Under the pieces are notes generated by a model that was given only the letters and a program-made list of their open reading frames with translations, made no database searches and was not told the DNA's origin. This document shows, piece after piece, positions 21,328-58,616 of a DNA stretch of 64,000 nt. Position 1 is the stretch's first letter, and each line of letters begins with the position of its first letter. A program made the translations under genes and the position numbers. Source of the DNA: Parabacteroides distasonis (lineage in GTDB: Bacteria > Bacteroidota > Bacteroidia > Bacteroidales > Tannerellaceae); the NCBI RefSeq assembly GCF_004793765.1, contig NZ_SRYM01000014.1:1-64000 (forward strand). Direction: 5' to 3'.

Positions 21328-21419
21328 CAATGCCCATCGTAAGCATCTAACAATGCCCATTCAAAAGAGCTTACGATGGGCATTATAAGAACCTTAGAAC
21401 GGGCATTGAAAGAATCATA
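21328..21419. repeat. Tandem array A: four degenerate 23-bp units
   Basis: Units start at 21328, 21351, 21374 and 21397. Units 1 and 2 begin CAATGCCCAT; units 3 and 4 carry GGGCATT in the same register, so the core appears as GCCC or as its complement GGGC. A 16-bp perfect inverted repeat (21329-21344 with 21369-21384) and a weaker one (21351-21362 with 21398-21409) allow alternative hairpins. It lies between convergent rplS and the repeat-protein operon and ends 20 bp past the latter's stop codon. Confidence 0.8.
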
Positions 21420-21439
21420 TATCCAAGCTACTCCACAGA

Positions 21440-23056
21440 CTACCGTCCGATGGATAGTTTACGGATGATACGAATGCCATCCGTCGCTTCGATAACGAGA
21501 AGTAAGGGGCTACGTATGGATAAGCGATAGATATCACCTTGTTCCATTTGGCCGTTAATGCCTAATAAGTCCCCCTCGAATGAGTAAACCATCAATCTGC
21601 GGATCGCTTGGCGAGCCGTCACGCAAAGTTGGTTCCCGGAGAAAGTGATCGTGACTGGTTCCTCCCTAGCGATCGTCTCATTGGCTACCGCACCTTTGGT
21701 ATACACCGCACGAATAGCGGGCAAGGCCGCACGTAGGATATTGACATCGAAATCATAATGCAAGGCTTTCGACAATAACTGATCCAGCAAGTACCATCCC
21801 ATAAAGGTATGGTCTACGATCGGCTCAGCCTTCAAGTTAATGACATCGCCTCGATAGCGGGTCACTTCCACCCAACCGTTCTCGCCGCCCTCTACTTCCA
21901 AGTCAACGGGTAATTCCCGGAATTTAGCCTCTAACTTACCCATATCTTTACCGATCAGGATCTCATGGCTCATCTCCGCCTCCGGGATAAACACGCCATC
22001 CAAATACCAACCTTCGAAAGCATAACCCGGTTCCGGCATCGCGATGATCTTGACCGTTTGGCCGGGAATGGGTTCGCCTATCACTTTCACCTCACCGCCT
22101 TTCTCCGTAGATGAAGGATCATCCGGATTCGGCCCGGGTACGATATCCACCTTATCCACCGGTACCTCTCTCTTCTTGAAGCGAGCCTCGATCGTAGTGG
22201 TTCGCTTACTAATAGTCAACGTATAAGAGATGTCGGTAGACAGGCATACACCCGCCTCATCGTACCAGCCGATAAAGTCGTAGTCTTTCGTAGGCGAGGC
22301 GATCAAGGTCACCTCATCCCCTAACCCATAGATACCGTTCCCGCTTTGCGAGACGTAGCCGGCCTCCGGATCGGAAGTGTTTACGTAAAGGCAATACCCG
22401 ATCTCCGGCTCGATAGGACTTTGCGGCTTCCAGTCGTACACGGCCCGCAGGTACACATGCTTGCCCGGCATGGTGAAGCGATAGGTTGCCTCTTCCGATA
22501 CTTTCTTCCCATCGCTCTCCCAATGGTCGAACACATAATCGGGGTAAGCATGGGCGATAAGTGTCACCTCTTTGCCATTTTCATAAATACCTTGGCCGCT
22601 CTGTTCTACCCATCCGGCCATGGAGGGAGTGACGGTCGTAATCAGATTATAATAACCATCTCCAGGCTCCGATGGATTCTCCTTCGGGTTGAAACGCAAT
22701 TTAGCAATCAAGCGAGCGTTTTTCTCCGTAAGGGTGAAGGTATATTCCGATAGACCGGACAATTCCTCTCCATCAGCGGACTGCCAAGCCACAAACTCAT
22801 AATCCGTATGCGGATAGACCCGTACCGTCACTTCCGTACCCGTATCATAAATACCGGACGGATTCGTTTGCTCCAAATAAGCGGATCCGTGGGGATCCGC
22901 GGAGAGCAAGAGCGTTAGTTTACCCGGCTCCGGCGGAGGAGTCGGATTGAACTCATCCTGCGCATAGACTTGCCCGATGGATCCTCCGAGGAAGATCCAA
23001 AGAGACAAGATCATCGTAATAGATCGCAACAATCGTTTTCTCATAGCGATTACCAT
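21440..23056 (-). CDS. Surface protein with five InlB-type B-repeats and a sorting-tail-like C-terminus
   Basis: The 538-residue protein has a signal peptide (MRKRLLRSITMILSLWIFLG, cut near VYAQ) and then five units of about 75-85 residues of the divergent InlB B-repeat type. The clearest are GWVEQSGQGIYENGKEVTLI...YVFDHW and GYVSQSGNGIYGLGDEVTLI...YDFIGWY. These beta-rich repeats occur in Gram-negative surface proteins and bind unknown ligands. The C-terminal 70 residues (VTARQAIRRLMVYSFEGDLL to RKLSIGR) look like a Por-type secretion tail; the type IX route is inference. The ATG at 23056 overlaps the upstream stop by 7 bp, suggesting translational coupling; ATG 23044 is an alternative. Confidence 0.8.
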   Translation of the reverse strand: MVIAMRKRLLRSITMILSLWIFLGGSIGQVYAQDEFNPTPPPEPGKLTLLLSADPHGSAYLEQTNPSGIYDTGTEVTVRVYPHTDYEFVAWQSADGEELSGLSEYTFTLTEKNARLIAKLRFNPKENPSEPGDGYYNLITTVTPSMAGWVEQSGQGIYENGKEVTLIAHAYPDYVFDHWESDGKKVSEEATYRFTMPGKHVYLRAVYDWKPQSPIEPEIGYCLYVNTSDPEAGYVSQSGNGIYGLGDEVTLIASPTKDYDFIGWYDEAGVCLSTDISYTLTISKRTTTIEARFKKREVPVDKVDIVPGPNPDDPSSTEKGGEVKVIGEPIPGQTVKIIAMPEPGYAFEGWYLDGVFIPEAEMSHEILIGKDMGKLEAKFRELPVDLEVEGGENGWVEVTRYRGDVINLKAEPIVDHTFMGWYLLDQLLSKALHYDFDVNILRAALPAIRAVYTKGAVANETIAREEPVTITFSGNQLCVTARQAIRRLMVYSFEGDLLGINGQMEQGDIYRLSIRSPLLLVIEATDGIRIIRKLSIGR

Positions 23057-26000
23057 TTAATGGAACGAGTCTGACGCTCGCCCGCTTTTGTCGTCCATGT
23101 CATATAATAAATACCAGACTGAGGTAGGGCGATACGTACCTCGTCATCCGTCGCCTTACCGGCGAAGTGGATACGACCCGCCGCATCGCATACGCTCAAG
23201 GTTTCCACATCACGCAAGCCGGATATGATCAACAAGCCTTCTCGCACGTTCCAGCGAACCGACGCGTCGATTGCCTCAACAGAAGTCACCACATCGCTCC
23301 TCAACTCAAAGCGGTCAGAGAGGGTTCCGGCCTCGGCCTCGAAAGTATAAGCCTCTTGGTTCAGGTCGCATACGGCACCCGTCCGCTTATCTACCAACTG
23401 AATACCCTCGCCAATCTTCTCTTTCAATGAGATCGTATAGCTTCCCTTGGCAGGCAGGACACATCCAAGGCGTACCACGCCATCCGCTACCGGACGTTCG
23501 TTGATAGCCAATCGATTCCCCTCTTTATCCAAGCTATAGAAAGAGGCGGCATCCGCATTCGGACTACTGAACTTGGCGGCGTCAAGGCCGATCTCATACT
23601 CCATTGAAGCCTCCTCGTTGAATACCACACGGGTACGGTCGCTTGCCTTCTCGCCTGCCAGCAGCAGGTTGACAACTCGACGGTTATCCGCGCTACGCAA
23701 CGCTGAAGCCGCTTGCGTTTCCCCCGGCAGGGCAGCCACACGACCCTCCGGATTGAATACTAAGTTGGAAGTCTTCGTTTGTACGAAGAAGGCCGTAAGC
23801 GGTGCCAGATAGACATCCTTATCCTCCTGCGTATAATACTCGTAATTATTCAAATCGGGAGACCAAACCGTCACCGTAGCGTCCAATCCATCAGCGAACA
23901 ATCGCTCCACGCTATAATAGGCGGGATACGGATTCCCCACGAAGTTCCAATTGGCATTCATGGCATTATCCGAGGCGTAAGTATTCAACGGAATCGTCAC
24001 GCTCGCCCGATTGAAGAGAGCTTTCATATCGCCGGTCTTGGTAGTAAAGGCATCGGCCATTCCATCGCCGCTATTGAACTGGATGATATATCCCGTATTC
24101 GCCTTTAAGATCTCCTCGTCCGAAAGTTGTCGCCATGACTCGCCTACTCCTTTATCGGCACGAGATTTGCCGTCGTATTCCCGTACCACAAAGCGAGCGT
24201 CGCTGCTCGTCAGCTTGATCTCGGACATCTTCAAGTCGTAGGGGAAGGATACGAAATGCCAATAGTTACTCCATGCGTCCCAATTGAAAGAGATCGCCTC
24301 GGTCTCTATCTCTGAATCCACCAATAAGGAAGCCCCTTGATAGTAAGCGAAACTCTTCGGTTTCCAGACCTCGTTGCCCTCGACGGTAAGGCTACCGCTA
24401 CGCAAAAGGACGGCGGGGCCGTCTATCTTGTTCTGATCGCTCATGACATAATCCCCACCATTGAACGTCATGATCTCACTATAGAAACGGGCTTCCAGCG
24501 AGCGATCAGTATCTTTCATCTCAAACGTCAATTCGGGTTCTGTCGAGATCTTCTTATTGTTTTCGTACCATCCATCGAAAGAGCTGGCCTCATAAACATC
24601 ACCACTATAGGCAATCGCCTTTAGCGTCACGATCTCGCCTGTCTCGTAAGCACCGGCACCTTCTACCCAGCCATTGCCTTTGGAAGAAGCCGTAACCAAA
24701 AATCCAAACTCCTCGATATTCTTGAAAGCAGACCAGTTTTCGTCTTTTTGATAACTCTCCTTCATTCCTTTCGGGACGTAGACCTTACAAGTAGTTTTAT
24801 CTGTAGATTCAAAAACATTCCCATTCAAATAAACCTTATCGGGTGATTTTAGTTTGATTGAAGAGAGCACAGCCGAAGAAAAAGCTCTACTACCTATGTT
24901 GTTCAAAGTAGCCGGGAACGACAAATCTCCGGTTATAAGACAACCATTGAAAGCTCTTTCACCAATAGAAGTCAACGAAGTTTTCGAGAAGTCAACAGAA
25001 GTAATACCCGCATTCTCAAATGCATAATGAGCGATTGATCTCAAATGAGACAATGAAGAGAAATCAATGCTTTTCAAACTTGAACATCCGGAGAACGCTT
25101 GGTAATCAATCGTCTCAATCGTTTCCGGAAGAATCACTTCTTCCAAATTTCCATGTCCGGAGAACGTATAATCAGGCAAACGATTTCCGTCCGACATCAC
25201 TTGAGACAAATCAATCTTTCTCAATACCGACATTTTCCGTATCACATTAAAATCCTCCGTATTCATCGGGCCGGAGATCTTCAATTCAGGTACACCGTAA
25301 ACCGGTATATTCAATGCCTCTAATTTAGTTTTCAGCGTACCCGCCTCCTCTAAGGTTACGGCTACCAAATCCGCATCAATCTCCACGATCTTACTCTCGC
25401 TCCAAACATCAGCCTTCCGATAGGCTTCCACAGAGCCTTTCGGGACATGAACAAAGGCATCTTCCAAACCGATTGATTGAGAAAGGCCGATCGGAGTAGC
25501 GGACTGCATGATTACTTTCGCCCCATTCCGGGAAAAACTACCATTATAGTCATTATTAGAGAAAGCCTTTCCCTTAATCGTCTGCACAGATTCGGGAATC
25601 GTCAATTCCATCAGCGATTCATTGGAAGGGAACGAAGATTCGCCCAAAGTCTTTACAGTGGCCGGAATCTCATAAGAGGAATTATTCTTCCCTGCCGGAT
25701 AAAGCAACAAACTTGCCTTGTCTACCACGAACAATACACCATCGATAGAAGTATAAAAGCCGTTATCGATTACGACTTCTTCCAAAGCTGGGCAATTATA
25801 AAAAGCACCGATATTCAATGTACTCAAAGAGGAACAATTGGTAAAATCTACCTTCTTCAAGTTTTCACAACTGCTAAACACCCCGTAAGAGATAACCGTT
25901 AGATCCATGCTCTTACTGAAATTAAAAGAGGTTATATTCTCATTGTCAGAGAAAGCATTTGCCCCGATCTGATTGATTCCAGAAGCAAAAACGATATCAC

Positions 26001-58448: not shown

Positions 58449-58477
58449 AGAACTTATGCTTTAAAAATTATTGCGCG

Positions 58478-58485
58478 CAAATATA
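58478..58485 (-). promoter_or_regulatory. -7 element of guaB
   Basis: TATATTTG on the minus strand matches TAnnTTTG and lies 30 bp before the guaB ATG. No ideal -33 TTG is seen; array E starts 44 bp upstream of the box. Confidence 0.5.
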
Positions 58486-58528
58486 CGACTTTCCACGCAA
58501 TAAATCGATATGGGAGTAATTAAAAATT

Positions 58529-58616
58529 CGATTCGGGAAAAAATAAACTTTCATCCGAACGAAAACAAAATTCCTTCCGAAGGAAAAATAAATCTCTTTC
58601 GGAAGGAACAATACGC
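58529..58616. repeat. Tandem array E: four degenerate 22-bp units
   Basis: Units start at 58529, 58551, 58573 and 58595. The core is TTCGGGAA, ATCCGAACGAA, TTCCGAAGGAA and TTTCGGAAGGAA in the four units, so CCGAA and CGGAA alternate in the same register, followed in most units by an A-rich stretch (AAAAATAAA). The minus strand has a TTCCTTCGGAAGGAA palindrome before TTTTGTTTT, which could stop transcription of recQ. It lies 46 bp past the recQ stop and upstream of guaB. Confidence 0.85.

Follow-up and report, generated by a model that had tools for sequence, protein, structure and literature searches.

The stretch analysed here, called the window, comprises 64,000 nucleotides of Parabacteroides distasonis (contig NZ_SRYM01000014.1, positions 1 to 64,000, forward strand) and carries five short intergenic tandem arrays, A to E, of 21–23 bp units, of which array D is located in the promoter region of a gene for an HU-HIG protein (HU domain fused to a winged helix-turn-helix, Ig or Gly-rich part). 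Each window array is one member of a family dispersed through the host genome. Arrays of the same kind were found upstream of most winged-helix HU-HIG genes sampled across the genus and order, and array similarity follows protein identity. The features concerned are, in window coordinates:

21281..21313 (about), no strand: terminator hairpin, GCCATCC...GGATGGC then TTTTT, between rplS and array A
21328..21419, no strand: array A, four units, period 23, family CTTANRATGCCCATYNTAAG; an orthologous copy is present in the close relative G016
27334..27417, no strand: array B, four units, period 21, family TTCRSYRSYRSYGAA plus a 6-bp spacer
27470..27585, no strand: array C, family CTACTTACTAAGTAG; called by neither Tandem Repeats Finder nor the autocorrelation census
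48426..49022, minus strand: HU-HIG gene, 198 aa, HU domain and C-terminal winged helix
49078..49165, minus strand: array D, four units, period 22, family TTTCACnnnnGTGAAA plus a 6-bp spacer, about 55 bp before the HU-HIG start
49177..49184, minus strand: -7 element match TATCTTTG, fitting TAnnTTTG, just before array D on the HU-HIG strand
58478..58485, minus strand: -7-like element TATATTTG, between array E and the guaB start
58529..58616, no strand: array E, four units, period 22/23, family TTCCTTCCGAAGGAA, between the recQ stop and guaB

TAnnTTTG is taken here to be the consensus of the Bacteroides -7 promoter element; as TATATTTG stands between guaB and array E, the array is on the upstream side of that promoter. 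Arrays A, B, D and E were called by Tandem Repeats Finder with periods of 23, 21, 22 and 22/23, in agreement with the census, and array C was established through homology searching, which gave 7 places across the host genome (best non-self E-value 7e-18). The original prediction, made from the letters of the window alone, had described four units in near-exact register, sequences unrelated between arrays and cores in both orientations, all correctly. It had also placed four of the five arrays 20–75 bp past a minus-strand stop codon, which held for A (21 bp), D (75 bp) and E (46 bp) when open reading frames (ORFs) of at least 100 aa were considered, and failed for B and C, where no long gene's stop is nearby and the sole candidate for C is a 65-aa ORF ending 92 bp off. 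Its statement that no classical terminator is seen was wrong at array A, which is preceded by the hairpin and T-run listed above.

Periodicity was scanned by autocorrelation in 1.264 Mb of sequence (0.8 Mb of G016, 0.4 Mb of the host genome G000, a Parabacteroides assembly of 4.2 Mb in 177 contigs, and the window), a non-random sample with some stretches picked around known matches and with a noncoding portion of 109 kb outside called ORFs. At a threshold of at least 42 of 66, noncoding matches numbered 2 at period 21, 30 at period 22 and 9 at period 23, and the remaining periods between 12 and 40 had none; within called ORFs periods 21, 22 and 23 gave 5, 4 and 4 matches and other periods 1–3. 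Lowering the threshold to 37 gave 6, 38 and 18 noncoding matches, with a mean of 0.27 at other periods, and these were merged into 63 arrays. Another genome, G012, contained 0, 15 and 1 arrays at the three periods in 400 kb (threshold 40), and G118, a member of the order with no HU-HIG match at E 1e-15, contained none at this threshold and one at period 21 at a threshold of 37, where other periods were similar; as a single negative genome, G118 is a weak control. The expectation that 20–24 bp periodicity would recur in the genome and its relatives was thus strongly borne out on the samples scanned. Clustering of 79 entries (census arrays plus those upstream of G000 and G016 HU-HIG genes, a few duplicated) gave 37 groups, 12 of them with at least two members; one entry, HU_L148, was a simple tetranucleotide repeat and no true array.

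Family places were counted by merging overlapping matches at E <= 0.001, with the query place included. Family A occupies 26 places in G000 and 22 in G016, some by short matches; family B 14 and 0 (a fifteenth G000 place was reached with another B query); family C 7 and 1; family D 10 in G000; and family E 2 and 3, the census clustering adding one more in G000 (at least 3). Copies of a family have the motif in common and not the free positions. Window arrays A, D and E, like several further A loci, have orthologous arrays at the same places in G000 and G016; at the A locus on contig C155 the array differs strongly between the two genomes, and in the orthologous D array the half-sites are kept while the centre of one unit has changed from AAGG to CTAT. 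B and C arrays adjoin in a similar layout at four places (window 27334-27585, twice on C144 of G000, and C100), some of them within longer duplicated stretches. Homology between G000 and G016 was seen to end right at some shared arrays (window 21427 and 49244; loci L043 and L098), as if islands had been exchanged beside arrays at these individual loci.

The window HU-HIG protein has an HU domain fused to a winged helix-turn-helix and was matched by PF18291 (E 7e-39) and by NCBIfam TIGR01201. Its AlphaFold2 monomer model (mean pLDDT 89, pTM 0.57) has an HU domain followed by a winged helix; by sequence it matched HU and IHF chains, and by Foldseek HU proteins and 4fmr, so that predicted fold, sequence matches and structural matches together make a DNA-binding protein likely. 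HU-HIG genes were then gathered by protein and Pfam searches, independently of arrays and keeping best matches only, at most 30 loci per search; after removal of duplicates and of short or N-filled upstream rows, the sample contained 51 winged-helix genes, drawn from across the genus and order, 17 with a SESPDEI tail and 32 others. An array lay within 250 bp upstream of 42 of the 51 winged-helix genes (a class set by a profile built from 18 long proteins, most already seen to have arrays), of 3/17 SESPDEI-type and of 8/32 other HU-HIG genes, as against 38 of 980 control genes, a set not cleared of HU-HIG genes (Fisher p 2e-43 versus the winged-helix class), and 3 of 2550 shuffles. Grouping of the winged-helix genes at 50% identity gave 24 clusters, of which 20 have an array. 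For the short SESPDEI-type genes an array within 800 bp upstream was found in 10/17, versus 59/977 controls. In a scan of 20 named HU-HIG loci (about nine overlapping the earlier sample, the rest including Bacteroides and Phocaeicola species), 17 scored at least 40, two stayed under 36 and one offered just 73 bp of upstream sequence. The Pfam cut-off was passed in 37 of 38 genus genomes, which says little because it also catches canonical HU; a match at E 1e-15 was obtained in 14 of 99 genomes of the order. Four SESPDEI-tail genes (L158, L163, L142 and L151) stand in small clusters with arrays further upstream, beside ORFs that are presumably DUF4248-like and amidase-like. Genes of the related family PF14848 have a 22–23 bp array at or near the 3' end and not upstream: L253 (G000 C89:104025), L254 (G016 1574256) and L260 (G016 2684744).

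Across the 42 winged-helix genes with arrays, protein identity tracked array similarity (861 pairs, Mantel r 0.65, p <= 0.0005), and the correlation was 0.46 for pairs below 50% protein identity. Family B illustrates the relation: its protein and its arrays were each found in one of 38 genus genomes, in both cases G000. Besides the B protein, G000 encodes two paralogues (73% and 70% identical to it), and the arrays differ; the nearest matches to the B protein elsewhere, in G050 (75%) and G016 (74%), both have N-type arrays and are orthologues of paralogue N (94 and 96%). Five further loci with proteins 56–65% identical to the B protein also have period-21 arrays, several with a B-like RSY core, so that in the B subclade a period-21 array was present at 8/8 loci read, G000's own included, among the 29 matches listed. 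Winged-helix partners in G000 or G016 were assigned to families B, D, F and N and to a B-like family. Families A and C are linked to SESPDEI-type genes, at 161 bp and about 450 bp upstream, and H, J, P and Q tentatively so (30–37 of 40 bp similarity, about 180–640 bp upstream), the P link resting on orthologous copies and the Q link on a match between G000 and G016. For families E, G, I, K, M, O, R, T and U no partner of any type has so far been found in G000 or G016.

Four units were counted in 41 of the 42 HU-HIG arrays and five in the remaining one, the count having been extended outward from four, so that three-unit arrays would not register as such. Family B had four units in 12/13 arrays and three clean units in the other; in family A the pattern gives five units at three loci and three units at several. 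Dyad symmetry (p <= 0.05) was detected in 38/42 HU-HIG arrays and 49/63 census arrays. Unit spacing in family A is 23 bp or a multiple in either orientation, with outer units mostly facing inward (first unit plus in 21/23, last unit minus in 18/23). Family B arrays are bounded by CTTCG and CGAAG and frequently have TATATA as their middle spacer; no leader or tail was shared by B copies outside duplicated stretches. Similarity at free positions was no higher within arrays than between them (A, p 0.27; B core, p 0.33), and B spacers were less alike within an array (p 0.002), which fits slot-specific spacers; slot-matched copying between B arrays was not found (0.460 versus 0.452). Covariation of pairing across the dyad was absent in A (91 units), B (52) and D (20). 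At positions 5/11 of the B unit complementary bases were avoided (5/52, 19.9 expected), as if perfect palindromes were selected against.

A TAnnTTTG element was present at -35 to -10 of the array start in 21 of the 42 HU-HIG arrays (0.042 expected per site), and 19 of these matches fall in one 10-bp window; three G000 genes of the B/N subclade have the reverse layout, with the array just upstream of the element. Among census arrays the element-before-array layout occurred on 4 of 126 strand-sides, with about 5.3 expected. Of the 63 census arrays, 22 lie in convergent, 27 in codirectional and 14 in divergent gaps, where uniform placement would give 12.6, 58.2 and 29.2%. For family A, 25 loci of the 48 places were read, 16 convergent, 9 codirectional and none divergent (11/20 convergent when five orthologous pairs are counted once). 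Family B, at 14 loci, was codirectional in 6, divergent in 4, convergent in 3 and unknown in 1, and adjoined at least one gene start at 11; family D was codirectional in 4, convergent in 2 and unknown in 1, and several F arrays lie in divergent gaps. The proposal of a 3'-end element therefore suits family A and, in part, the census (22/63 convergent), and does not suit family B, part of F or the arrays at HU-HIG promoters. An insulator role would be compatible with the observations.

The explanation we favour, with somewhat better than even confidence, is that the arrays are duplex-DNA sites for cognate winged-helix HU-HIG proteins, combining autoregulation with dispersed copies. HU works as a dimer. 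Each 21–23 bp unit, a degenerate palindrome, would bind one HU-HIG dimer, and four dimers on one face of the helix would make up a defined particle spanning about 88 bp. Cooperative binding of this kind fits the number and helical phasing of the units, their dyads, the promoter position and the co-variation, and bends spaced at 22 bp would add in one direction, making a compact particle plausible. Each winged-helix paralogue would have its own array family. That HU-HIG proteins bind the arrays is highly probable on these grounds, and the suggestion of a protein-binding element was in this respect well aimed: it is backed by the link to HU-HIG genes, by the dyad symmetry and fixed spacing of the units and by the co-variation of protein and array, binding being predicted. 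Negative autoregulation through the array copy at the paralogue's own promoter is probable from its position. The weakest step is the role of the dispersed copies, mostly between transcription units, as roadblocks, boundaries or anchoring sites, which we put forward tentatively, at rather less than even confidence.

Several results weigh against this reading. By the threshold used, 9 of the 51 winged-helix genes have no array, and 18 of the 42 HU-HIG arrays show neither promoter arrangement when a strict TAnnTTTG is required. Only 25 of 51 adjacent genes have a promoter element separating their start from the array. In pairs with less than 50% identity, array similarity is better predicted from the HU domain (r 0.456) than from the winged helix (0.275). 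For families A, C, E, G, H, I, J, K, P, R and others the analysis yielded no winged-helix partner, and the HU-HIG gene nearest to A is of the SESPDEI type, the array lying 161 bp before its start. Judging visually from N-terminal residues, the genes next to dispersed B, C and D arrays seem unrelated. Finally, the 63 census arrays give very stable RNA folds (mean z -5.4 and -5.1 on the two strands), and one terminator-like match lies inside array D (15 matches in the region, 10.8 in shuffles).

These last two points would be expected if the arrays acted in transcripts as hairpins, that is as terminators, 3'-end protection or a structured 5' leader of HU-HIG messages. The 21 HU-HIG arrays just after a promoter element would be transcribed, and family A, placed at convergent gene ends, folds slightly more stably than arrays recombined from its own units (z -0.61, standard error 0.19, n 18). 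Against such a role, in B (13 arrays) and D (6) natural and recombined arrays fold about equally well (z -0.14 and -0.38, standard error 0.26 each), dyad pairing covariation is lacking in A, B and D, complementarity at B positions 5/11 is avoided, unit spacing in A is kept in either orientation, and the arrays of the window and of 10 loci gave no Rfam match above the gathering score. An RNA hairpin as the main function, unsupported by the covariation and recombination tests, was therefore set aside as improbable, with the small excess in family A retained; family A or the HU-HIG leaders may have an RNA function. Intrinsic termination as the common function was likewise rejected: the match in D is the single one, the scan found none at A, B or C (11 matches in that region, 9.4 in shuffles; the scan omits the 21281-21313 hairpin, whose loop of about 9 exceeds its rule), and the terminator at A is separate from the array. 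A plain regulon for each family, with the arrays as ordinary operators of local transcription factors, would account for B arrays beside gene starts, for divergent F arrays and for arrays abutting the core promoters of part of the HU-HIG genes; this is unlikely, if the least so of the alternatives, as family A has no divergent locus and 16 convergent ones out of 25, the flanking genes look unrelated and census arrays do not show the HU-HIG promoter spacing (4/126).

REP- or MITE-like selfish repeats spread by a transposase, with HU-HIG as passenger or host factor, could explain dispersed families of 7–26 places, the presence of B in one genome of 38, B copies within longer duplicated stretches and shared arrays at synteny breaks. 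Units are nonetheless no more alike within arrays than between them and B is hardly slot-matched, so that no recent copying is visible outside duplicated stretches (neither a transposase nor target duplications were searched for), and arrays stand at HU-HIG promoters in several genera of the order; we consider this explanation slightly less probable again than an RNA role. Plain minisatellites arising by replication slippage would have tandem units of constant length, as seen here, but the restriction of noncoding periods to 21–23, the four units in nearly all HU-HIG arrays, within-array units that are no more alike and the same motif at many loci contradict them, and on the unit statistics they were ruled out as extremely improbable. 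Clustered regularly interspaced short palindromic repeats (CRISPR), which combine near-identical repeats, unique spacers and cas genes, were rejected because the units are degenerate and the gaps a few bp; no search for cas genes was made.

Among known systems, repetitive extragenic palindromes and bacterial interspersed mosaic elements (REP/BIME) consist of single or paired palindromes of 20–40 nt, many with GTAG or CGTC tags and with a RAYT gene; they and the REPIN-RAYT systems occur in enterobacteria and pseudomonads, where the gene family is thought to be paired with repeat types. The arrays resemble them in having palindromic units dispersed between genes, often at gene ends, and a gene family proposed to be paired with repeat types. 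They differ in that the units are of 21–23 bp and typically in fours, in that the partner has HU and winged-helix domains and is not a RAYT transposase, and in that an array stands at the partner's promoter; no tag common to the families was found, units keep a 21–23 bp register with about four per array, and a RAYT gene was not searched for. Iterons are direct repeats of few 19–22 bp units at a replication origin, bound by a self-repressing winged-helix Rep initiator whose gene is nearby; few units of about 20 bp near a winged-helix protein gene are common to both, whereas the arrays are chromosomal, form many families at many loci and involve an HU domain. IHF-binding RIP/RIB elements and sites of the matS/parS type are dispersed sites of HU/IHF-superfamily or architectural proteins, and here, unlike there, several unrelated site families occur per genome, several with their own paralogue.

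Another similar repeat is the BrickBuilt miniature inverted-repeat transposable element (MITE) of Porphyromonas gingivalis, described in the part of the source available to us as 19 segments of 23-nt tandem repeats between genes, one sequence family with 1 to 22.8 repeats and a leader and tail with inverted-repeat ends (PMC4596501). Intergenic tandem repeats of about 23 nt in a Bacteroidales genome are thus shared, while the arrays here form many families and that part of the source describes no HU-HIG link (PMC4596501). The near-constant four units (41/42 HU-HIG and 12/13 B arrays) and the lack of a common leader or tail in B separate the arrays from BrickBuilt and minisatellite MITEs; MITEs have terminal inverted repeats and target duplications; the edges of B are the short CTTCG...CGAAG. 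In P. gingivalis the HU protein PG0121 has been linked to the 77-bp inverted repeat of the capsule locus, again an HU gene linked to an inverted repeat in Bacteroidales; in contrast to what is proposed here, PG0121 is reported to bind various DNA substrates without discrimination, and the part of the paper available mentions no dispersed array family (PMC3969353). Palindromic candidate RNAs of 80–132 bp have been listed in Bacteroidetes, as far as the portion of that source available to us goes, and some of them could be such arrays (PMC8040213). In open-access full text in PubMed Central, no description of such arrays or of their HU-HIG link was recognised, which suggests that the proposed pairs of HU-HIG proteins and DNA address tags are a previously undescribed set.

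HU is the textbook example of a sequence-blind nucleoid protein. HU paralogues reading private, dispersed four-site arrays would, if the favoured explanation is correct, constitute a new layer of chromosome organization in a dominant gut order; they could explain the high HU-HIG gene numbers in some genomes of the order and would provide a natural set of orthogonal protein-array pairs. A further extension is speculative and, taken as a whole, doubtful: a sequence-addressed Bacteroidales nucleoid, in which a growing set of HU-HIG paralogues would form four-dimer particles on their own 88-bp arrays and so mark, and perhaps link, the borders of transcription units. Each genome would hold several orthogonal codes, and duplication of a protein along with a new array family would give rise to further ones.

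Arrays A and B adjoin two large minus-strand genes (window 21440-26871) whose leucine-rich repeats are InlB-like and BspA-like. Elsewhere in the window, an S4-Bacteroidia ribosomal protein leader (RF03139, 44.9 bits) was matched at 32359-32397 on the minus strand.

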